In this document: in pieces, positions 16,838 through 53,603 of the stretch | Numbering within the stretch: the first letter of the stretch is position 1 | How the letters are laid out: each line of letters starts with the position of its first letter | IMG/VR virus record: IMGVR_UViG_3300047445_000186 | Location: 193,829 to 257,828 of that record | Source: a virus | Direction: 5' to 3' (one strand) | Length of the DNA: 64,000 bases | Made by a program: the position numbers and the translations under genes | Notes under the pieces: generated by a model | The model's input: only the letters and a program-made list of their open reading frames with translations | Database searches by the model: none | What the model was told of the DNA's origin: nothing

Positions 16838-16860
16838 TTGTAACGTCTGTTCGTTACAAT
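16838..16860 (+). promoter_or_regulatory. Promoter with TTGTAAC/GTTACAA dyad
   Basis: TTGTAAC (16,838-16,844) and GTTACAA (16,853-16,859) form a perfect 7-bp inverted repeat whose right arm contains the -10 TACAAT (16,855-16,860). A second dyad, TGTTC/GAACA, also encloses the -10. The same TTGTAAC/GTTACAA arrangement precedes the sugar-isomerase gene at 36,611. Confidence 0.6.
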
Positions 16861-16881: not shown

Positions 16882-17934
16882 ATGGAACATATGCAATTGG
16901 GGCATCTGAACAACGATTTTCGGACGTGCCTGCATCATCTGAATGCGCACGGCATGACTGCGCACCCACGTGGAACGACCACGAAAGAGCTGCTGAATTA
17001 CAACATTTCGCTCGGCGATCCACGCAATCGGATCATCAATTTCCCTGATCGGAAGACCAATCTGAAGTACCTGCTCGGTGAATTCTGCTGGTATCTCGCT
17101 GGTGACAACGACCCTGACAGCATCATCCCGTACAGCAAGTTCTGGGACAACATCCGCAATTCTGGCGACATGCCGGGATACGCGAAGGGCACGATCAATT
17201 CGAACTACGGCTATCGTCTGTTCGGTCTGGACAACGAGATGCTCGTTCCGCATGTCGAGAAGGCAATGACTCCGTACGGTTGCGATGAGACCGGTGCAGT
17301 CGTGATCGAGCCGCATGAGACGACAGTGATTCGTGGTCAGAGCCAGTGGGCAGCAGTAGTCGACATGCTCAAGGCCGACAAGGATTCGCGTCAAGCGATC
17401 ATGAACATCCATCGCCCAAGTGATCGTCACGTCGGGAACAAGGACGTTGCATGTACCCTGACCCTGCAGTTCTTCATTCGTGAGAACAAGTTGTTCATGA
17501 TCACGAACATGCGATCGAACGACATCATTCTCGGCTTCACGAACGACGTGTTCCAGTTCACGATGCTGCAAGAAGGCCTGATGGTTCAACTGCGTGAAAC
17601 GTACCCTGAGCTTGAGCTCGGCGCGTACTACCACAATGCAGGTTCGATGCACATCTACGACAGGCACTTCGAGATGGCGAACAAGATCGTCGCTGACGAA
17701 CGAGCACTCGAGCTGTCAATGGTTCCAATGGATCGATTCGACTCCGAGATTCTGGACAGCCTGGTCGAGATTGAAACTGAGTGGCGCAAGGACGGCATGA
17801 AGAAGGACTTCAACTTCAATCTGTACACCTCGTACCAGAAGCTCACACCGTACTGGCAGAACCTGATTCAAATGTGCTTCGCCGAAGATGGTGAAGCAAT
17901 GCACGCCGTGTTCGGCATCCCAGAGGAGCATTGA
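16882..17934 (+). CDS. dCMP hydroxymethylase-like (thymidylate synthase family)
   Basis: 350 residues. TS-fold enzyme: catalytic Cys in KDVACTLTLQF (C191), MRSNDIILG (R211-S212), and AGSMHIYDRH near residue 256. The residue equivalent to TS Asn177 (E. coli), which recognises the uracil 4-oxo group, is Asp here (GFTNDVF, D222), as in T4 gp42 and MilA-type cytosine hydroxymethylases. I therefore read it as making 5-hydroxymethyl-dCMP with methylene-tetrahydrofolate. The genuine TS of this phage is at 53,603. GGAG ribosome binding site; starts a plus-strand operon. Confidence 0.82.
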   Translation: MEHMQLGHLNNDFRTCLHHLNAHGMTAHPRGTTTKELLNYNISLGDPRNRIINFPDRKTNLKYLLGEFCWYLAGDNDPDSIIPYSKFWDNIRNSGDMPGYAKGTINSNYGYRLFGLDNEMLVPHVEKAMTPYGCDETGAVVIEPHETTVIRGQSQWAAVVDMLKADKDSRQAIMNIHRPSDRHVGNKDVACTLTLQFFIRENKLFMITNMRSNDIILGFTNDVFQFTMLQEGLMVQLRETYPELELGAYYHNAGSMHIYDRHFEMANKIVADERALELSMVPMDRFDSEILDSLVEIETEWRKDGMKKDFNFNLYTSYQKLTPYWQNLIQMCFAEDGEAMHAVFGIPEEH

Positions 17935-21888: not shown

Positions 21889-22178
21889 CAACGATCTCGT
21901 CCCGCAAGGGGACGACTTCAAATAGCCTGACGTTCGATGACCTAACCGACGCAGAGCTCGAGCTGATCTCGGCCTTGGTCTACAATGTACGACTCGGCAA
22001 GGGAAGTATCTATCGCGAAGCTGCGTACGATCTGATGAACAAGATCGAATCCTTCAAGCAGGACGATGACTACATCAGCCGAGCCAGTGCACTCGTGGAC
22101 CCTGAATGTGATGTGCTTGACAGCCATGGCACGCCAGCGTTCACGATCCGTAATCAAGACTACGAAGTCGTCGTATGA
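21885..22178 (+). CDS. Hypothetical protein
   Basis: 97 residues from the ATG at 21,885, which overlaps the lipoprotein stop. Helical middle part (DAELELISALVYNVRLGKGS, YDLMNKIESF). No family recognised. Confidence 0.7.
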   Translation: MTTISSRKGTTSNSLTFDDLTDAELELISALVYNVRLGKGSIYREAAYDLMNKIESFKQDDDYISRASALVDPECDVLDSHGTPAFTIRNQDYEVVV

Positions 22179-22762
22179 GCATAAACAAATTTCTGATCGA
22201 GGGTCTCGATCGTCTCGGCAAAGACACCCTGATCGATGGGATCATGCACCAGCGCGGGTACCATCAGGTCCTGCACTTCTCGAAGCCACGTCATCTCGCT
22301 CGGTACATGCCAAGCCCAACGGGCATGACTGCAGCCGAGATGGAGAGTGTCTCGTTCAAGGAGTACCAAGAGCAATCGTTCAGGACAATGTTCGCGATGC
22401 TCCGCAATCTGCCGTACACTCAGATCATTTGCAATCGGGCGCACCTTGGCGAATGCGTGTACGCTCCCCTGTACCGCGGGTACGCAGGCGAGTACGTGTT
22501 CGACATCGAGAAGCAGTTCTTGAAGGGCGATTCGCGAACCATTCGTCTGATCCTGCTCACTGAAGACTTCAGCGTGTCGAAGCACTTCGTCGATGACGGT
22601 GAGTCATTCGACATCGCAAAGCGCGAGCAAGAGCAGGACCTGTTCAAGGCTGCGTTCGAGAAGTCGTGCATCAGTGACAAGCGAATCGTGAACGTCACCG
22701 ATCGCGAAACTGGCGGCTATCGCTCGAAGCAAGACATTCTGCTTGAGGTCACCTCACTATGA
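22175..22762 (+). CDS. Thymidylate-kinase-like nucleotide kinase
   Basis: 195 residues. P-loop FLIEGLDRLGKDTLI (G10-K16) has the thymidylate-kinase form (GLDRxGKDT), and NRAHLGECVYAPLYRGY corresponds to the substrate-binding DRx region. Likely phosphorylates a deoxynucleoside monophosphate; with a hydroxymethylase in the same window, hydroxymethyl-dCMP is a plausible substrate (T4 uses gp1 for this). Family assignment is good, substrate is inference. ATGA overlaps at both ends. Confidence 0.72.
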   Translation: MSINKFLIEGLDRLGKDTLIDGIMHQRGYHQVLHFSKPRHLARYMPSPTGMTAAEMESVSFKEYQEQSFRTMFAMLRNLPYTQIICNRAHLGECVYAPLYRGYAGEYVFDIEKQFLKGDSRTIRLILLTEDFSVSKHFVDDGESFDIAKREQEQDLFKAAFEKSCISDKRIVNVTDRETGGYRSKQDILLEVTSL

Positions 22763-23476: not shown

Positions 23477-23537
23477 AGCCGGCCAACTCAGTATTTCATC
23501 GTCCCAATTTGGCCCCGAGAAGCCTGAACAATTCGGT

Positions 23538-23543
23538 TACAAT
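23538..23543 (+). promoter_or_regulatory. -10 element TACAAT
   Basis: GGTTACAAT upstream of the YqeY-like gene; the GTTAC and the -10 overlap here as at 16,853 and 36,575. The TTGGGGAA leader provides a ribosome binding site. Confidence 0.5.
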
Positions 23544-23566: not shown

Positions 23567-24007
23567 ATGACACTAATATTTGAAATCAAAGCGGCCCAAT
23601 TGGCCGCTCGTAAAGAACGTCGGGCAGCGGATGTTGCTGTGCTGACGACCCTGATCGGTGAGGCGGAAATCATCGGCAAGAACGATGGAAATCGCGCAGT
23701 CACGGACCAGGAAGTGCAGGCCGTAATTAAGAAGTTCATCAAGAATATCGATGAGGTTCTGAAGGTCGTAAATCCTGGGTCTGATCAATTCACGACCGCT
23801 CAGGAAGAGAAGATTCTTCTGAGCACGTTCCTGCCTGTGCAGCTCTCTGAAGCTGACCTGCGGCTGATCATTCAAACCGTGATCGATGCACATCAGCTCG
23901 TGGCTCCAAAGGGTCTCGGTGTTCTGATGAAGGAACTGAAGGACTCGCATAACGGCACGTACGATGGTGCGCTTGCCTCGAAACTTGCAAAGGAATTGTT
24001 GAAGTGA
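23567..24007 (+). CDS. YqeY/GatB-C-terminal-like protein
   Basis: 146 residues from the ATG at 23,567 (GGGGA ribosome binding site). Matches the YqeY pattern: N-terminal LIFEIKAAQLAARKERRAAD, TLIGEAEIIGK, then VQAVIKKFIKNIDE, EEKILLSTFLPVQLSEADLR and GLGVLMKELKDSHNGTYDGA. Cellular YqeY resembles the tRNA-interacting tail of GatB. The start of the DNA glucosyltransferase gene (GTG) overlaps its stop. Role in infection unknown; tRNA binding is the family-based guess. Confidence 0.75.
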   Translation: MTLIFEIKAAQLAARKERRAADVAVLTTLIGEAEIIGKNDGNRAVTDQEVQAVIKKFIKNIDEVLKVVNPGSDQFTTAQEEKILLSTFLPVQLSEADLRLIIQTVIDAHQLVAPKGLGVLMKELKDSHNGTYDGALASKLAKELLK

Positions 24008-25173
24008 AAGTTGGTGTAGTTAAACTTGGTGCTCGCATTACCTGGGAAACCGACGCAGCTGTCGGTCCTGGTGAAGCGATCTCGATCTGCAAGGCACTCA
24101 CGCGAGGTGGGGCTGAGGTCCATGTGTTCACGAAGATTCTGGCGAAGGACACGCTCGATCCGTCGATTCAGTGGCACAATACGGTTGGCAGCGATGCACG
24201 TTCAATCCATGCAGGTCAAGACCTCGACACGACCGGTCTCGATGCTCTGCTCGTGATTAACGGGAATGTGAACTTCTTCGGTGGCGCCGAAGATCGTGCT
24301 CAGATTCTGAATTACACGATCATCAATCGGTTCGCGGGTCCGGTGATCTACGTGATGTGCGACCCTGAACTGCCGATGCTGCAGATCTGGGAGAACGTCT
24401 CGAAGAAGCAAGTCGATCCGAAGTACAACTGGGAGAACGTGTACGCTGAGTCGGACATTCGTGTCACGAAGCCGATCAATGTGCTCTGCCAGCCGTTCAA
24501 TGTTCAGGCAATGCAGGAAACGTGGAAGAGCAAGAAGGGCGCTGTGCCACTCGGCACGATGTTCCACTTCCCGATGGAACGCTTCCCGCTCCTGAACGAG
24601 TGGCTAGATTACGCCGAAACTCCGGCAGTCGATCTGCTCTACGGCGGTACGGCTCGTGGTGGGCGCCGCATTCCGAATCTGTACAAGTGGTACTGCGGTC
24701 TGCCTGAAGATCTGAACGTCGAAATCTTCGGCAAGATCGACAATGAAGACTTCGAGAAGCACAACAAGATCGGGAAGCTTCCAGTGAAACGGTACCCAAC
24801 GTTCACGGGTATGGTGAAGTACTCTGAAGTGCTACCAAAGATGAACAACGCTCTTGCGCATCTGGTCACTGGCGATCCGTCGTACGAAACGCTCGATCTG
24901 ATTCCTCAACGCGTTGCCGAGTGCATCGCCGCTGGGAACATCGTGTTCATCGACGCGAACATCGACAAGAGCCGTCGGATCTATCCTGTTGGAACCGAGG
25001 CGCATGACTTCCTGTACGTGCAGACGCAAGATGAACTCGTCGAGCGACTGCGTGTGCTGAAGGAAGAGCCAAGTCTGCGCTCCACTCTGTGGCAGCAACA
25101 GACGATCGCAACGAACTTCAACGCCGACACGTTCACAAAGTCGTTGGTCACGAAGATCGCGGAGTTCGTATGA
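24004..25173 (+). CDS. DNA glycosyltransferase, T4 beta-GT homologue
   Basis: 389 residues, GTG start overlapping the upstream stop. Aligns along its length with T4 DNA beta-glucosyltransferase (351 aa): INGNVNFFGG versus T4 VNSSINFFGG; YVMCDPELP with the catalytic Asp (D120, T4 D100); LLYGGTARGGRR (R218, R221/222 for T4 R191/R195); YPTFTGM; and RVAECIA (R303, E306 for T4 R269/E272). E24 matches T4 E22. It should transfer a sugar from a nucleotide sugar to 5-hydroxymethylcytosine in DNA. Sugar identity (glucose or another) cannot be told from the sequence. Confidence 0.9.
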   Translation: MKVGVVKLGARITWETDAAVGPGEAISICKALTRGGAEVHVFTKILAKDTLDPSIQWHNTVGSDARSIHAGQDLDTTGLDALLVINGNVNFFGGAEDRAQILNYTIINRFAGPVIYVMCDPELPMLQIWENVSKKQVDPKYNWENVYAESDIRVTKPINVLCQPFNVQAMQETWKSKKGAVPLGTMFHFPMERFPLLNEWLDYAETPAVDLLYGGTARGGRRIPNLYKWYCGLPEDLNVEIFGKIDNEDFEKHNKIGKLPVKRYPTFTGMVKYSEVLPKMNNALAHLVTGDPSYETLDLIPQRVAECIAAGNIVFIDANIDKSRRIYPVGTEAHDFLYVQTQDELVERLRVLKEEPSLRSTLWQQQTIATNFNADTFTKSLVTKIAEFV

Positions 25174-26214: not shown

Positions 26215-26901
26215 ATGCACTTCAACACCCCTACACTGGTCACTCTGACCGCCCCATCTTGCGCTGGCAAGAGTTACCTGCTCGAGGCAATGGTTGACAG
26301 CCTTGGCATGCAGCGTATTGTGTCCACCACTGATCGCGCTCCACGAGCCGGTGAAATCGAAGGTGTGCACTACAACTTCATCACGACGAACGAATCTCTG
26401 CAGTACGAAGCTGAAGGAAAGTTCGCCGAGCTTGTGACGTTCAATGGCACTCGGTACGGTGTCACTCACGAGGAAATGGAGAAGAAGCTCGTTCCTGGTG
26501 CACCAGCTCCGATCGTGATTCTCGAGCCGAACGGTGTGAACATCTACCGCCAGTACTGTGGTTCGAAGAACTGGTCGATCTTCACCGTGTTCGTCTCGAC
26601 GCCTGAAGCCGTTCGCCTTGAACGCCTCGCTGCTCGTACCACTGCTGATCTGCTGAACATTGCAGTGAATGGCGGTGATCTGGAGAAGAGCCTTCTTGCA
26701 CGCGGCAATTTGTTCGACCGGTTCGAGAAGATCGTTCACGCGAACAACAAGCGCCTGAAGGCGATCATCGAACAAGAACGTCTCTGGGCTGCCACGAACC
26801 TGTGGGATGCGCAGATCACAGGTCAAGACCTGAACGTTGCACTCTCGCACCTGAAGCAATCGATCGCCAGCCGTAACGCCCGCTCCGCAATCTACGCCTA
26901 A
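26215..26901 (+). CDS. Guanylate-kinase-like nucleotide kinase
   Basis: 228 residues. P-loop TAPSCAGKSYLL (K19), STTDRAPRAGEIEGVHYNF (the GMP-binding segment of guanylate kinases), and KFAELVTFNGTRYGVTHEEM. Guanylate kinases have TRxPRxGExxGxxY; this matches closely. Probably converts dGMP (or hydroxymethyl-dCMP, like T4 gp1) to the diphosphate for phage dNTP synthesis. Substrate not determinable here. Confidence 0.78.
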   Translation: MHFNTPTLVTLTAPSCAGKSYLLEAMVDSLGMQRIVSTTDRAPRAGEIEGVHYNFITTNESLQYEAEGKFAELVTFNGTRYGVTHEEMEKKLVPGAPAPIVILEPNGVNIYRQYCGSKNWSIFTVFVSTPEAVRLERLAARTTADLLNIAVNGGDLEKSLLARGNLFDRFEKIVHANNKRLKAIIEQERLWAATNLWDAQITGQDLNVALSHLKQSIASRNARSAIYA

Positions 26902-27273: not shown

Positions 27274-27555
27274 ATGACAAAAGCAATCAACAAAGCACTG
27301 CAAACCCCTGAAGCCCAAGCTCTCCTGGCCGCTGGCCTGAAGCTGAAGTCGACCAAGCGTCAACTCGCGAACGGCACGATCGCCCTGACCGGCCGCGTGA
27401 AGAAGCGCGCTGTGTCGTACAAGATCACGGCCACTGGTTCGGTCTTGAGCAATGAGTTCGTCGCTCGTCGCGTTCTCGAATCCACCGAAGGTCAACTGTA
27501 CCGCGCTGGTCTCCGCGCTGCTGCTGAACTGCTCGCCAAGCGCAAGGCTGCCTGA
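27274..27555 (+). CDS. Hypothetical basic protein
   Basis: 93 residues, strongly basic and Ala/Leu-rich (LLAAGLKLKSTKRQLANG, RVKKRAVSYKIT), GAAGG ribosome binding site. May bind nucleic acid. No family recognised. Stop overlaps the next start. Confidence 0.68.
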   Translation: MTKAINKALQTPEAQALLAAGLKLKSTKRQLANGTIALTGRVKKRAVSYKITATGSVLSNEFVARRVLESTEGQLYRAGLRAAAELLAKRKAA

Positions 27556-28076
27556 TGCAGTTGTACACCGCTCCCGAGCCCGTACCGTTCGGCCTTGATC
27601 CAGTTCCGTCTGTGTTCTTGGCTGGTTCGATCGAGCAGGGTACCGCAATTGACTGGCAGCACGAAGTGCTGGACGAGATCAGCGATCTGCGGGTAGTGGT
27701 GTTCAACCCACGACGCAAGGCATGGGACGCGTCGTGGGTGCAATCAATCGACAACCCTCAGTTCAACAAGCAAGTGAACTGGGAGCTCGACAATCTGTCT
27801 CGTTCAGACATCGCGTTCTTCTACTTCGATCCAAAGACGAAGTCGCCAATCACGCTCATGGAACTTGGTTTCATGCTTGGCCAATCCATGCAAGGTGGAT
27901 GGTACGAGATCATCGTGGTTTGCCCAGACGGCTTTTGGCGTCAAGGGAATGTCGAGATCATGTGTGCTCGAGCCGTCGTGGCTGATGGCACTCGCGTTTC
28001 GTACGTGACCGAGCTTGACGCAGGGATTTCGATTCTACGCGACGACATTGAACGCCAGCTGGAACGCGCGATTTAA
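27555..28076 (+). CDS. Nucleoside 2-deoxyribosyltransferase-like protein
   Basis: 173 residues. SVFLAGSIEQGTAIDWQ, VVFNPRRKAWD, FNKQVNWELDNLSRSDIAFF and SPITLMELGFMLG match the nucleoside 2-deoxyribosyltransferase-like (type 2) family, including the Asp-rich and Glu-containing ELG active-site region. Such enzymes exchange or hydrolyse bases on deoxyribose, or clear modified nucleotides. Ends tail-to-tail (4-nt overlap) with the minus-strand SDR gene. Confidence 0.78.
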   Translation: MQLYTAPEPVPFGLDPVPSVFLAGSIEQGTAIDWQHEVLDEISDLRVVVFNPRRKAWDASWVQSIDNPQFNKQVNWELDNLSRSDIAFFYFDPKTKSPITLMELGFMLGQSMQGGWYEIIVVCPDGFWRQGNVEIMCARAVVADGTRVSYVTELDAGISILRDDIERQLERAI

Positions 28077-36560: not shown

Positions 36561-36582
36561 TTGTAACGATTTCGGTTACAAT
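36561..36582 (+). promoter_or_regulatory. Promoter with TTGTAAC/GTTACAA dyad
   Basis: TTGTAAC (36,561-36,567) and GTTACAA (36,575-36,581) form a perfect dyad whose right arm merges with the -10 TACAAT (36,577-36,582). Closely similar to the element upstream of the hydroxymethylase gene (16,838), suggesting the two are co-regulated. Confidence 0.6.
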
Positions 36583-36610: not shown

Positions 36611-37351
36611 ATGTCAACAAACCTCGCACTTCAGTGCATTGAACGTCAAATCGAAGCGCTTCGTGCGCTTCCCACCCTCGTCGAAACCTCGGAGGAATAC
36701 AAGAAGATCGTCACGATCGTCACTGAGGTCGCGTTGAGCGAGCACGGAGCTCGTGTCCTGCTTGCCGGCGTCGGCAAGAACTCGAACATCGCGTCCAAGG
36801 TCAGTCAGACCATGGCCAGCCTCGGCATTCCGTCGATGCCGTTGAATGTCTCGCACCTTGGTCACGGCGACTACGGCTTCATTGGGAAGTACGATGTGAT
36901 CATTCACATCAGCCGTTCTGGCATGACCCGTGAAATGCTGGAAGGGATCGAGCACATCTCGCTCATTCGCCCATTCGTGACGCAAATCCTGATTCACTGC
37001 AAGGCCGGCAAGGTCAAGAACGAGCATGCCGAGATTGAGCTCTTCCTGCCTGATGTCCTCGAAGGCGATGAGCATGGTCTTGCACCAACAACCTCGACGA
37101 CCGCGCTGCTCTGCATTCTGGATTGCATCTCGGTTCAAGCATCGGCGAACATCGAGTTCGAACGTCTGGACTTCCTGAAGTTCCACCCTGATGGCGCACT
37201 CGGCGAAATGCTGAAGGCCGAGAAGGCGAAGAAGGTTCACACTGATATTTCGGCCGCCGTTCCTGTCGAAGGCGTGCCAATCAATGATCCAGCGATCGCA
37301 GCATTGGTCACTCCTGAATCCGCTGAAGCAGCACGAAAGTTGGTTGTATGA
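36611..37351 (+). CDS. Arabinose-5-phosphate isomerase-like SIS protein
   Basis: 246 residues. SIS fold with the KdsD/GutQ pattern: VLLAGVGKNSNIASKVSQTM, SHLGHGDYGFIGKYDV, HISRSGMTREM (sugar-phosphate loop), LAPTTSTTALLCILD and FLKFHPDGALGEML. Lacks the C-terminal CBS pair of full KdsD, as in short isomerases. Expected to interconvert ribulose-5-phosphate and arabinose-5-phosphate. In this phage context it is most likely a sugar source for a nucleotide-sugar used on DNA or fibres, not for host Kdo synthesis. Heads an operon with the fused nucleotidyltransferase/kinase. Confidence 0.82.
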   Translation: MSTNLALQCIERQIEALRALPTLVETSEEYKKIVTIVTEVALSEHGARVLLAGVGKNSNIASKVSQTMASLGIPSMPLNVSHLGHGDYGFIGKYDVIIHISRSGMTREMLEGIEHISLIRPFVTQILIHCKAGKVKNEHAEIELFLPDVLEGDEHGLAPTTSTTALLCILDCISVQASANIEFERLDFLKFHPDGALGEMLKAEKAKKVHTDISAAVPVEGVPINDPAIAALVTPESAEAARKLVV

Positions 37352-37509
37352 ACGTCGTAAACATTGGCCTCAAGACCTTTGACGACGCGGGCCTGGATTG
37401 GGATGCGTTCGTGTCGCTGAAACACGAGAATGGAAACACTGAAGACATCCGCCTCACTGAACTTATTGAACGGATCGTAGAGCGGAAGATCAAGGAAAAA
37501 CAAGAATGA
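37348..37509 (+). CDS. Small protein between sugar genes
   Basis: 53 residues (MNVVNIGLKTFDDAGLDWDA ... LIERIVERKIKEKQE). ATGA-coupled to both the isomerase and the nucleotidyltransferase/kinase gene. Too short for a recognisable fold; C-terminal half is a charged helix. Perhaps an assembly subunit for the flanking enzymes. Confidence 0.6.
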   Translation: MNVVNIGLKTFDDAGLDWDAFVSLKHENGNTEDIRLTELIERIVERKIKEKQE

Positions 37510-39116
37510 ATATCGTGATTGTTGCGGGTGGGCTTGGTTCCCGCCTCGCTCCACTGACAAACAACGTGCCGAAGTTCCTCGTGAACATCGGGAAGAACAC
37601 GGGGTATGTGGAGCAAGTTCGGTACTGGGCGAAGCAAATTGATTTTTCTCCGTTCAGCGAAACAAATGACACGCTCACCGTGATCGTTCACAGCGCGTAC
37701 GAAGCTCTGATCAATGCGTACCACAAGGTGTACTTCCCGAACATTCCGCTGATCGTGCAAACGGTTGACGTGGCGAACGGCTCTGCACACGCGATCTTGA
37801 GTACATGTCGTCATTTGAACGGCAAGCCAGTGGTCTTCCAGTGGTGCGACGTTATGCCTGCCGTTCCGCTTCCAGATTTCGACAAGGAACAGAACGCGAT
37901 CTTCACGAACTACGATCACTCAAATCGCTATGGCCTTTCGTATGCGAAGACTCCAGGCGGTGGGTGCATTCCTACACCTCAGCCGGATGGCAAGGGTGGT
38001 GTGTTCGGCATGTACTACATCGCGAACTTCCACACGAGTGTGACGTCCCATGATGGTGAAGACTTCGTTGACGTGATCACCCAGTACGGCAAGATCCAAG
38101 AAGTGAAGCTTGATGGCATCATCGACTGGGGCGACATGCCTAAGCTGAATCAGACCCGTGATACGGCTGATGCCGCACGTGAGTTCAACAGCATCTCGGT
38201 CCAAGGGAACTTGGTCATGAAGTCCGCGCTGAACAAGCAGGGCGAAACGCTGATCGCTCGTGAGATCAATTGGTACCGCAAGGTCCACAAGGATGGGTAC
38301 GGCGTTTCGATCCCTGAGATCTGGCCAGCAGATGACGGCAAGAGCTTCATCATGGACAAGGTCGAAGGCGAGCCGATCTTCAAGGTCTGGCCTGCACTTG
38401 ATCCTCAAGGACGTGGAATCGTTCTGCGGAAGATCTTCGAGCAGCTCGATCGCCTCCATGACGATGGTGATCTGTTCGCCGTAGGGACTGACACTGTTCT
38501 GCGTGACGTGAAGATCGAAGCTTGTGACAAGCTCCTTGCTCGCTATCGCGAAATCAAGGACGTGATCAAGGCGTTCGGCCCTATCACGCACGTGAACGGT
38601 CTGTACATCGGCGATCTGAATCCAGAGGTCACGATCCACAAGCTGTACGCACGTCTGCACGAGCACTATGCTGGCACAGAAGATTACAGCATGATCCACG
38701 GTGATCTGCAGATGTCGAACAGCATGATCGATACCAGCAATCTCGAAGTGTCGTTCATCGACCCACGCGGTTATTTCGGCAAGAGCGAGCTCATGGGTCT
38801 GCCAGATTACGACATCGCGAAGGTTTACTACAGCCTGAGCGGGTACGATCTGTTTAACTACAGCCGCGATTTCCACATCAAGGAACTCGCTGACGGACAT
38901 CTGGAGTTCGAGATTCCGAAGCCGAATCTCGATGGATGCGAAGACGTGATGGGTGAGCGATTCTGGCACCAACATCGCCTGTGGCTCGCGGTGATCTGGA
39001 TCGGTCTTGCAGGGTACATCAAGAACGACCCGGTGAAATCACTGTGCGCGCACTACCACGGCCTCGCGATCGCGGAACAAATCTTCCGCGACACGTTCGA
39101 TCCGTTCAAGCCATGA
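37506..39116 (+). CDS. Fused sugar nucleotidyltransferase and APH-like kinase
   Basis: 536 residues. N-terminal domain (~1-235): VAGGLGSRLAPLTNNVPKFL, the GGxGxRLxPLTxxxPK signature of sugar-1-phosphate nucleotidyltransferases, with QWCDVMP for the metal Asp. C-terminal domain (~240-536): APH/choline-kinase fold with IHGDLQMSN (H398-N405, catalytic D400) and FIDPRG (D419). A single chain could phosphorylate a sugar or alcohol and activate it as a nucleotide adduct. Its partner isomerase makes arabinose-5-phosphate, so an activated pentose is the natural guess. Substrate is inference. Confidence 0.82.
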   Translation: MNIVIVAGGLGSRLAPLTNNVPKFLVNIGKNTGYVEQVRYWAKQIDFSPFSETNDTLTVIVHSAYEALINAYHKVYFPNIPLIVQTVDVANGSAHAILSTCRHLNGKPVVFQWCDVMPAVPLPDFDKEQNAIFTNYDHSNRYGLSYAKTPGGGCIPTPQPDGKGGVFGMYYIANFHTSVTSHDGEDFVDVITQYGKIQEVKLDGIIDWGDMPKLNQTRDTADAAREFNSISVQGNLVMKSALNKQGETLIAREINWYRKVHKDGYGVSIPEIWPADDGKSFIMDKVEGEPIFKVWPALDPQGRGIVLRKIFEQLDRLHDDGDLFAVGTDTVLRDVKIEACDKLLARYREIKDVIKAFGPITHVNGLYIGDLNPEVTIHKLYARLHEHYAGTEDYSMIHGDLQMSNSMIDTSNLEVSFIDPRGYFGKSELMGLPDYDIAKVYYSLSGYDLFNYSRDFHIKELADGHLEFEIPKPNLDGCEDVMGERFWHQHRLWLAVIWIGLAGYIKNDPVKSLCAHYHGLAIAEQIFRDTFDPFKP

Positions 39117-41189: not shown

Positions 41190-41448
41190 GTTGCTCAGCA
41201 TCAACGACGTCTGGGACGCTCGTCGTGTCTCGAAGTACCTCGGGCCCATGCTGGTCGATCTCGAAGATTCGATTATGAAGACCCCGACGGGGCCGGCCCG
41301 CGACGTCCTGACCGAGGCGAACATCCTCGTGATGCAGGCCCAGGCGCTCCTTCACGCGTTCGATGGGCGATGCGTGAAGGAGCACTACCAGCGCACGCCA
41401 GAAGATTGGGCGGCCGAGCTCCCAAAGGACGGAGGGCATGATGCCTGA
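41176..41448 (+). CDS. Hypothetical protein
   Basis: 90 residues from MAKSKLLSINDVWDARRVSK. Helical, with a DVLTEANILVMQAQALLHAF amphipathic stretch. Overlaps the Fpg/Nei gene by 8 nt. No family recognised. Confidence 0.66.
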   Translation: MAKSKLLSINDVWDARRVSKYLGPMLVDLEDSIMKTPTGPARDVLTEANILVMQAQALLHAFDGRCVKEHYQRTPEDWAAELPKDGGHDA

Positions 41449-42304
41449 AGGACCTGAAGTGAAACGGATCGCGGCGGGCCTCGAGTCCCTCCAAGGGAAG
41501 ACGATCGCAAGCGGGCAAGTCGTGTCGGGCCGTTATCTGCGCGGCCAAGAGATCACGTTCGAGACGATCATCGGCGCGAAGGTCGAGCGCGTGATCTGCA
41601 AGGGGAAGCTGATCGCGTTTCACTTGAAGGGTGCCGAGGGGCCGCTGGCGATCTTGAGCACGATGGGGATGATGGGCCGTTGGATCGTCTTGACCGAGGC
41701 GAACAGCGACTTGGATGCGCACCGTCGTGTCGAGCTCACGTTCGATGACGGCACAATCGCCGCGTTCTTCGACCCTCGGAATTTCGGCACGTTCAAGATC
41801 GTGTCGTACGCCGAGATGAAGCGGAAAATGCAGGAGCTCGGCCCCGACATCCTCACGGCGCCAGGGCACTGGCATGCAATCGCCCTGCCCGAGTTCTACG
41901 AGCGCGTTCGCCGATTTGGCAAGGATCTCTCGCTTGCCGAAGGGCTTCTGGACCAACGAATCTGCTCTGGCTGTGGGAACTACATCAGGGCCGACGCGAT
42001 GTGGCTGGCGCGCTTCTCGCCCAAACGGCGCATGTCCGAGATGACTGACGCCGATCTGAAGCGGATCTGGATCGCGATGCATGAAATCGCGATCGCGGCG
42101 GCCGAGAACAAGGTCCCACCACTGCACATGGACGGCGAAGGGCATCACAGCGCTCTGATCCAGATCTCGAAAGAGATCAGCGCCGTCGGCGAATTCTTCA
42201 ACCTCGCTTATGGCCAGCCCGAAACTGCAAGTGGCGGTATGATCGAGTCTTACAAGGACTCGAATGGTCGCACGGTGTGGTGGTGCCCCAAGGAACAGAA
42301 ATGA
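41441..42304 (+). CDS. Fpg/Nei-type DNA glycosylase
   Basis: 287 residues from the second of two adjacent ATGs, giving the essential N-terminal MPEGPEVK (Pro2 nucleophile after Met removal, Glu3). KGKLIAFHL carries the conserved Lys, FFDPRNFGTF the Arg/Asn loop, LLDQRICSGCGNYIRADAMW the helix-two-turn-helix, and the C-terminus SNGRTVWWCPKEQ a degenerate zinc-finger end. Acts on oxidised bases by beta/delta elimination. Why a phage with modified cytosines needs it is unclear; it may tolerate or repair oxidised DNA. Confidence 0.88.
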   Translation: MPEGPEVKRIAAGLESLQGKTIASGQVVSGRYLRGQEITFETIIGAKVERVICKGKLIAFHLKGAEGPLAILSTMGMMGRWIVLTEANSDLDAHRRVELTFDDGTIAAFFDPRNFGTFKIVSYAEMKRKMQELGPDILTAPGHWHAIALPEFYERVRRFGKDLSLAEGLLDQRICSGCGNYIRADAMWLARFSPKRRMSEMTDADLKRIWIAMHEIAIAAAENKVPPLHMDGEGHHSALIQISKEISAVGEFFNLAYGQPETASGGMIESYKDSNGRTVWWCPKEQK

Positions 42305-51569: not shown

Positions 51570-52193
51570 ATGTCGCTCTTGAACGACAAAACGTGGCTGA
51601 TGGAACAAGCCCTCCCCCTCCCCAAACAGAGAGTCGAAAAGATGTACGCAGGACTTCGCAAGGTTATCAGTGGCGGCCAAACGGGCGCTGATCAAGCAGG
51701 GCTGATCGCTGCTGCGAAGATGAAGATTCCGACTGGTGGCACTGCCCCAGCGAATTGGATGACGCAAGCGGGTCCGAACCCCCTGCTCGAAGTTCTCGGC
51801 CTGAAGGCGGAAGGCACGCTCAGAACTCGCACGATCAAGAACATCACGGACTCCGTCGGCACCGTGCTCCTGACCGTCTCGCCGAACTCGCCTGGTTCGG
51901 TCCTCACGCGGAACGAGTGCAAGCGCCAAGGGAAGCCGATCCTCGAGATCGACCTGGTGCCTGTTCTCGAAGGCCTGCAGAAGGGTGGTGGTCAAGACTT
52001 CGCGAACCTCGTGCAGAAAGAAAGCGCGAAGGTCACGCAGTGGATGATCACGGAAGGCGTCACGGTCTTGAACGTCGCCGGCAACCGCGAACGCGGCGAA
52101 GCCCTGATGACGACCACAGCCGTCACGACGATCTTGACGAACGCGTTCAAGGCACTCGACAACGTCGACGCAATCGTGCGGGAATTCGCATGA
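51570..52193 (+). CDS. SLOG/LOG-fold putative molybdenum-carrier-like protein
   Basis: 207 residues. VISGGQTGADQAGLIAAAKM, GGTAPANW, RTRTIKNITDSVGTVLLTV and KRQGKPILEIDL match the putative molybdenum carrier/SLOG family (SGGQTGAD, RT.xNV.DSDGT, KP). SLOG domains bind nucleotides and appear in nucleotide-signalling and defence contexts. Role here unknown; a cofactor or nucleotide sensor is possible. Confidence 0.75.
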   Translation: MSLLNDKTWLMEQALPLPKQRVEKMYAGLRKVISGGQTGADQAGLIAAAKMKIPTGGTAPANWMTQAGPNPLLEVLGLKAEGTLRTRTIKNITDSVGTVLLTVSPNSPGSVLTRNECKRQGKPILEIDLVPVLEGLQKGGGQDFANLVQKESAKVTQWMITEGVTVLNVAGNRERGEALMTTTAVTTILTNAFKALDNVDAIVREFA

Positions 52194-53032: not shown

Positions 53033-53058
53033 TCATGCGCCTTACAATAGGTGCATGA
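53033..53058 (+). promoter_or_regulatory. Early promoter with dyad across -10 and ATG
   Basis: -10 TACAAT (53,043-53,048), six bases, ATG at 53,055. TCATGC/GCATGA (53,033-53,038; 53,053-53,058) forms a perfect 6-bp inverted repeat across the -10 and start codon. Confidence 0.55.
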
Positions 53059-53603
53059 CACTCACAGACAAAAGCAAGTTCCTCGCGTTCTTGCTGAGGC
53101 ATAAGCCGCAAGAAGCAAACCTGATTCTCGACAAGCAGGGCTGGTGCCCGATCGCTGACATCACAGCGAACACCGAGATCACCTTCGAAGATTTGATCTC
53201 GATTGTCGACACCGATAAAAAGGGTCGGTACTCGTTCGATCAGCCGAAGCAGTCCTCGCAAGCGCCGACAAAAATCCGCGCAAATCAAGGGCACAGCACC
53301 GACAAGGTCAAGCTCTCGTTCAAGACGGCCGTTCCTCCAGTCGTTCTGTACCATGGCACTTCAGCCGAAGCTGCCGTTCAAATCTGCCGCATTGGCCTGC
53401 TCGCGATGAGCCGCCATCACGTCCATCTCTCTGCTGACATCGAGACTGCCCGCACCGTCGCATCCCGGCGTAAGGGCAAGACAGCGATGTTCCTCGTGGA
53501 CGCTAAGCGAATGCTCGCCGACGGGTTGAAGTTCCAGCTCTCTGAGAATGGAGTCTGGTTGGTTGACGCCGTACCCGCTAAGTACCTTACACAGGAAACT
53601 TAA
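53055..53603 (+). CDS. kptA: RNA 2'-phosphotransferase KptA/Tpt1
   Basis: 182 residues. Matches the KptA/Tpt1 family end to end: SKFLAFLLRHKPQEANLILD, QGWCPIADI, KGRYSFD, KIRANQGHS, PPVVLYHGT, GLLAMSRHHVHLSAD and SENGVWLVDAVPAKYL. Transfers the 2'-phosphate left at an RNA splice or repair junction to NAD+, giving ADP-ribose-1''-2''-cyclic phosphate. Overlaps the thyA gene by 1 nt. Its product is the substrate of the macro-domain protein encoded downstream. Confidence 0.92.
   Translation: MTLTDKSKFLAFLLRHKPQEANLILDKQGWCPIADITANTEITFEDLISIVDTDKKGRYSFDQPKQSSQAPTKIRANQGHSTDKVKLSFKTAVPPVVLYHGTSAEAAVQICRIGLLAMSRHHVHLSADIETARTVASRRKGKTAMFLVDAKRMLADGLKFQLSENGVWLVDAVPAKYLTQET

Follow-up and report, generated by a model that had tools for sequence, protein, structure and literature searches.

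By its sequence, a three-gene cassette found in the genome of a jumbo phage corresponds to the already described ORF055c/ORF053_052c pair of phage RB69, and it is its combination with genes of the 5-hydroxymethylcytosine (hmC) type that is new. We consider it somewhat probable, with slightly better than even prospects, that this phage makes arabinosyl-hydroxymethylcytosine by means of a pentosyltransferase of the beta-glucosyltransferase (beta-GT) fold, fed by the NDP-arabinose of the cassette. The most interesting lead is the exchange of donor modules among the beta-GTs of jumbo phages, which the comparison of their loci suggests. The cassette lies in a window of 64,000 nucleotides, i.e., positions 193829-257828 of the 331,776-base (332-kb) virus record IMGVR_UViG_3300047445_000186 (G000), whose features are collected in Table 1.

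Table 1. Features of the window relevant to the proposed DNA modification (window positions, unless stated otherwise).
Feature	Positions	Strand	Basis or context
CGTTACAAT element	16852..16860	+	dyad 16838-16859, upstream of the dCMP-type thymidylate-synthase-family enzyme
dCMP-type thymidylate-synthase-family enzyme, probable dCMP hydroxymethylase	16882..17934	+	PF00303; residues
Thymidylate-kinase-like protein, candidate modified-dNMP kinase	22175..22762	+	phrog_761 1.6e-5; near beta-GT in relatives
GGTTACAAT element	23535..23543	+	upstream of the YqeY/beta-GT gene pair
Beta-glucosyltransferase homolog, proposed DNA pentosyltransferase	24004..25173	+	PF09198 3.7e-17; phrog_7922 4e-46
Guanylate-kinase-like protein	26215..26901	+	PF00625 4.8e-15; near beta-GT, conserved in relatives
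GGTTACAAT promoter-like element	36574..36582	+	right arm of dyad 36561-36581, before the cassette
SIS-domain sugar-phosphate isomerase, KdsD/RB69 ORF055c-like	36611..37351	+	246 aa; phrog_5670, SIS residues
Small ORF in the isomerase/fusion gap	37348..37509	+	53 codons; an ATGA overlap on either side; not conserved
Nucleotidyltransferase (N-terminal)/APH-fold kinase (C-terminal), RB69 ORF053_052c family	37506..39116	+	536 aa; Pfam, phrog_4098
GT4-like glycosyltransferase	record positions 128217-129359 (L007:874-2016)		four records of at least 310 kb

The three open reading frames of the cassette (36611-39116) are coupled by two ATGA overlaps, and PHROG and Pfam matches agree with the first-pass annotation, which had recognized in them a KdsD-like SIS isomerase and a fused NTP-transferase/APH-kinase. 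The isomerase matched phrog_5670, "arabinose 5-phosphate isomerase" (PHROG, E 8.7e-66), and, among solved structures, phosphosugar isomerases (2.4e-20), while its score against the KpsF/GutQ profile TIGR00393 (NCBIfam; 3.3e-23, 82.6 bits) lies under the curated cut-off of 203.7, the protein being shorter than the family profile. Residues K56, E108, E151, and H192, which we take to be K59, E111, E152, and H193 of KdsD, are invariant in all 23 phage isomerase homologs, and the protein presumably converts ribulose-5-P into arabinose-5-P. Both domains of the fusion protein, NTP_transferase and APH, scored above their Pfam cut-offs, and the protein matched phrog_4098 (PHROG, 1e-115). Its AlphaFold2 model (pLDDT 91.6) found the sugar-1-phosphate nucleotidyltransferases RmlA and MurU as the best folds (Foldseek); the best 50 Foldseek rows were nucleotidyltransferase matches, and the kinase domain is supported by Pfam and motifs. 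Residues G9, R13, K23, D115, D207, D210, H398, D400, N405, and D419 are invariant in 30/30 homologs.

The 53-residue ORF, earlier taken for a linker protein, was rejected as a conserved component, since no homolog was detected in the 29 cassette loci searched; it had no Pfam, PHROG, or NCBIfam match, and the small ORFs of RB69 (054c) and CHI14 are hydrophobic and dissimilar to it. In two loci (L056:8596-9795 and L057:451-1608) the isomerase frame, judged by eye, continues into a GIY-YIG endonuclease-like stretch, and a comparably long frame at L138:2989-4188 perhaps has a similar extension. In the bacterial ADP-/GDP-heptose route (GmhA-HldE-GmhB), a SIS isomerase is followed by an anomeric kinase and a nucleotidyltransferase joined in one protein. 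The cassette appears to follow the same logic by analogy, although its kinase comes from the unrelated APH family and its presumed substrate is a pentose.

At the DNA level, no match of the cassette to phages was found, its relatives being detectable at the protein level. The domain fusion, which had been thought unusual, has matches in 369 phage records and the isomerase in 268; among the matches listed, nearly all are T4-like. Scanning IMG/VR with the fusion alignment brought up two sets of loci: 7 with 50-57% identity, whose contigs range from 7 to 343 kb in length, and 22 of the T4-like kind with 31-37%. Nor is the route undescribed, as had been claimed, because the cassette was published in RB69, whose DNA carries arabinose and whose ORF055c and ORF053_052c were proposed in 2018 to synthesize UDP-arabinose for it (Thomas et al. 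2018, PMC6024577). The isomerases of the jumbo phage and of the RB69/Mosigvirus locus are 45% identical, and the fusion shares about 32-37% identity with its T4-like members; the two genes adjoin in the same order, and in some members a small ORF lies between them. As both cassette proteins belong to the same families as those of RB69, where the DNA is arabinosylated, we read the cassette as an arabinose donor module. The analogy with RB69 drawn in the first-pass annotation stands for the cassette and has to be corrected for the base: arabinosyl-hmC had been assumed there, whereas the RB69-type base was reported in 2026 to be 5-arabinosyl-hydroxycytosine, in which the sugar sits directly on C5 and whose precursor is the product of a 5-hydroxy-dCMP synthase that belongs to the thymidylate synthase (TS) family (PMC13390438).

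The surroundings of the cassette differ between the two groups of phages. In 22/22 T4-like phages, genes for a HAD protein, an RB69-type TS enzyme, a 303-aa transferase-like protein, and a kinase are located less than 10 kb from the fusion, and none of these neighbors had a match in the 7 jumbo loci. Likewise, neither the window's record (G000) nor its relative G001 yielded a homolog of RB69 ORF050c (U32), ORF051c (HAD), or the in-cluster transferase, and ORF003c was not found by tblastn. Unlike the RB69/Mosigvirus locus, with its HAD phosphatase, 5-hydroxy-dCMP synthase, and in-cluster transferase, the jumbo phage carries, at separate loci, a dCMP-type TS enzyme that keeps the folate residues, and a beta-GT homolog.

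Several variations of these loci were observed. ORF050c of RB69 (L008:26495-27661) belongs to the peptidase-U32 family (PF01136, 7.4e-11), which includes the RNA cytosine hydroxylase RlhA. U32 was rejected as a marker of the hydroxycytosine type, as Pseudomonas phage PspYZU05 showed no match to it and only 10/22 T4-like phages did. Seven of the 22 T4-like loci (L068-L070, L072, L074, L081, and L083) retain the fusion, HAD, and TS genes with no isomerase homolog in the flank, and may use another pentose. In Shewanella phage Thanatos, TH1_060 is a homolog of RB69 ORF053_052c and hence of the jumbo fusion; it was assayed with xylose-1-P there, and the activity reported, that of a UDP-xylose pyrophosphorylase, is attributed to the neighboring TH1_063 and not to the fusion homolog, a point against our reading. 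The Thanatos modification is reported as a deoxypentose bound directly to cytosine (PMC12838424).

Which cytosine derivative is made should depend on the TS-family enzyme. In an alignment of 48 TS-family proteins (E. coli numbering), the catalytic cysteine (C146) was present in all, and position 177, Asn in thymidylate synthase, was Asp in the RB69-type, jumbo, and T4 enzymes. The RB69-type enzymes carry N169 and V173 (23/23, in T4-like cassette phages, e.g., L008:25500-26213), whereas D169 and G173 are kept in the jumbo (6/6) and T4-type (5/5) enzymes and in all other TS-family proteins aligned. Asp169 contacts the folate pteridine (PMC6514825). In the TS tree, the RB69 type formed one clade (100/100) and the jumbo enzymes a separate group (87/94) outside it; the deep branches are long, their order is unresolved, and no sister relation of jumbo and T4 enzymes was supported. 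The window's enzyme, like T4 gp42, combines the dCMP-type Asp with the folate Asp/Gly pair, and we infer from these residues folate-dependent hydroxymethylation of dCMP. It could also be a dCMP methylase, whose product would offer no hydroxyl to the beta-GT. The same data bear on the possibility that the jumbo phage makes the RB69-type base, i.e., that its TS enzyme hydroxylates dCMP and some transferase puts arabinose directly at C5. The sugar cassette is indeed the same as in the phages reported to contain 5-ara-dC, yet the TS enzyme falls outside the RB69-type clade and retains the folate residues lost there, and the HAD, in-cluster transferase, U32, and ORF003c genes were not found as described above; we consider this reading quite unlikely. 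Asn/Val in place of Asp169/Gly173 was seen in the reported hydroxy-dCMP synthases and in no other TS-family enzyme examined, and is a possible diagnostic signature of the former.

The acceptor of the sugar, in the preferred reading, would be served by the beta-GT homolog. It is only 26-29% identical to T4 beta-GT, but all the listed catalytic residues of the latter (E22, N70, D100, R191, R195, D258, R269, and E272) are present. The match is based on sequence; a structure model built from two sequences had a pLDDT of 33 and was set aside. The search for the fusion across phage genomes and for its co-occurrence with beta-GT genes, recommended in the first-pass annotation, revealed the cassette, the beta-GT homolog, and a second, dCMP-type TS-family enzyme together in all six jumbo-type records of at least 150 kb (the window's own and five relatives) and beta-GT in 0/22 T4-like cassette records, counts that are not phylogenetically independent; the two jumbo-type contigs on which beta-GT was absent are fragmentary, measuring 7 and 114 kb. 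The earlier proposal of an activated pentose for the beta-GT finds indirect support for the jumbo phages in this co-occurrence; its parallel with RB69 has to be amended, since no beta-GT occurs in those T4-like records. The cassette and beta-GT genes are about 11 kb apart and do not form one operon, which we count against our reading.

A role unrelated to DNA is also conceivable, with the cassette acting in the glycosylation of the surface or fibres or in the metabolism of the host envelope. Such SIS proteins supply arabinose-5-P for KDO and capsule in bacteria, and a capsule-linked isomerase is among the best PDB matches of the window's protein. The consistent association of the cassette with hmC-type genes and beta-GT in the six large jumbo records, and with modification genes in every T4-like phage, argues against such a role, KDO or capsule genes were not noticed in the cassette flanks, and we regard it as very improbable.

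The pathway to arabinosyl-hmC may be envisaged as follows, its reactions, the sugar identity, the linkage, and the use of this donor by this glycosyltransferase all being inferred from sequence. The SIS protein would form D-arabinose-5-P from ribulose-5-P, the APH-fold kinase domain would place a phosphate onto the anomeric carbon, a phosphatase would take off the 5-phosphate, and the nucleotidyltransferase domain would form NDP-arabinose, probably UDP-arabinose. As the HAD of the RB69 cluster was not found in G000 or G001, removal of the 5-phosphate is left to a host or an unrecognised enzyme. In parallel, the TS-family enzyme would produce 5-hydroxymethyl-dCMP, to be raised to the triphosphate by phage kinases and incorporated by the polymerase, and finally the beta-GT homolog would transfer the pentose to hydroxymethylcytosine in DNA. 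The thymidylate-kinase-like protein, a candidate for one such step, is conserved (50-64%) in the pentose-cassette (type I) loci and weakly matches the kinase of the T4-like cluster. In contrast to the T4 glucosyl-hmC pathway, the jumbo phage encodes a pentose-activation cassette, and a gp56-type dCTPase (PF08761) was not found in any of the six jumbo records, T4, RB69, and CHI14 being positive; full replacement of cytosine is therefore doubtful.

Alternatively, the beta-GT may act as it does in T4 and add glucose taken from host UDP-glucose, and a second sugar, made by the cassette, may be attached by the GT4-like transferase to glucosyl-hmC or elsewhere. The T4-like catalytic core of the beta-GT and the presence of the GT4-like gene in four large records favor this, and that the GT4-like protein could be the pentosyltransferase is a point against our reading. 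However, this protein has homologs of 37-38% identity in three other large jumbo records and is less conserved than the beta-GT (62-71%), and in the window's record it lies 80-100 kb away. Moreover, divergent jumbo beta-GTs are accompanied by a dedicated donor cassette, which would be needless with host UDP-glucose, and a phage-encoded donor cassette argues otherwise. We therefore hold this alternative to be unlikely, though less so than a base of the RB69 type.

The divergent enzymes were recovered with an alignment query, which found 16 beta-GT contigs, whereas the single sequence matched nothing. Six of them are 59-71% identical, and all but one 13.7-kb fragment also have the pentose cassette on that contig; the remaining ten, some of which are duplicates, are 38-47% identical. 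Near the divergent beta-GTs, a CofD-like/HAD fusion (PF01933) and a MobA/IspD-like nucleotidyltransferase were identified in 11/11 contigs (the ten and the 462-kb LR756500), in loci L124-L133 and L009 (e.g., L133:11173-13877 and L126:12601-15272), while no SIS or nucleotidyltransferase/kinase fusion was found in the stretches examined around them. None of the papers listed by a literature search for CofD in phage DNA modification mentioned CofD. The pentose-cassette group (99/100) was nested among the other sequences of the beta-GT tree (enclosing branch 88/83), which fits the replacement of one donor module by another, and the constant presence of the CofD-HAD/MobA-like pair is expected if each cassette serves its own glycosyltransferase. 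T4 position 190, beside Arg191, is A, P, or T in the seven beta-GTs of the pentose-cassette group and F, L, or M elsewhere, a correlation only. The combined proposition, namely that a jumbo-phage clade produces genuine arabinosyl-5-hydroxymethylcytosine through a pentosyltransferase of the beta-GT fold and that jumbo-phage beta-GTs swap whole donor modules (SIS and nucleotidyltransferase/kinase for a pentose, CofD-HAD and MobA-like for a possibly non-sugar or phosphorylated group), is put forward tentatively, its chances falling a little short of even.

If true, sequence predicts in jumbo phages the base that RB69 was credited with in 2018, before that assignment was corrected, and what varies in phage DNA glycosylation is suggested to be the donor and not the fold of the transferase. 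Different hmC sugars should alter the sensitivity to type IV restriction, DNA-glycosylase, and CRISPR defences, which makes the two donor modules a natural comparison.

The TTGTAAC/GTTACAA dyad, noted earlier as common to the cassette and the hydroxymethylase operon, is real, occurring twice in the window (16838 and 36561; none expected) and three times in the 332-kb record, the third copy preceding a gp32-like gene. We rejected the dyad as a specific regulatory link between the two: ahead of their isomerase and TS genes, relatives mostly retain just GTTACAAT, exact or nearly so, the left arm is not conserved, and the right arm belongs to the genome-wide motif [CG]GTTACAAT, with 18 sites in the record. 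Seventeen of them are on the + strand, many just upstream of start codons, and the reversed motif had no match in the record. The GGTTACAAT form occurs only at the two sites listed in Table 1. A scrambled 8-mer control was nearly as frequent as GTTACAAT (16 vs. 21), and scrambled 9-mers occurred 5 times each, vs. 16 for CGTTACAAT and 2 for GGTTACAAT; the enrichment therefore relies mainly on CGTTACAAT, the strand bias, and the position before genes. We read [CG]GTTACAAT as a promoter-like phage element.

Other genes of the same phage region were also recognized. A nucleoside 2-deoxyribosyltransferase-like protein (27555-28076; PF15891, 2.2e-29) is encoded between beta-GT and the cassette, and a formamidopyrimidine-DNA-glycosylase-like protein (41438-42304) near the latter, as in G001 (L012:10310-11329). 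In addition, a circularly permuted YpsA SLOG protein (51570-52193; 2.3e-25) and a Tpt1/KptA-family RNA 2'-phosphotransferase (53055-53603; 9.4e-45) were found.
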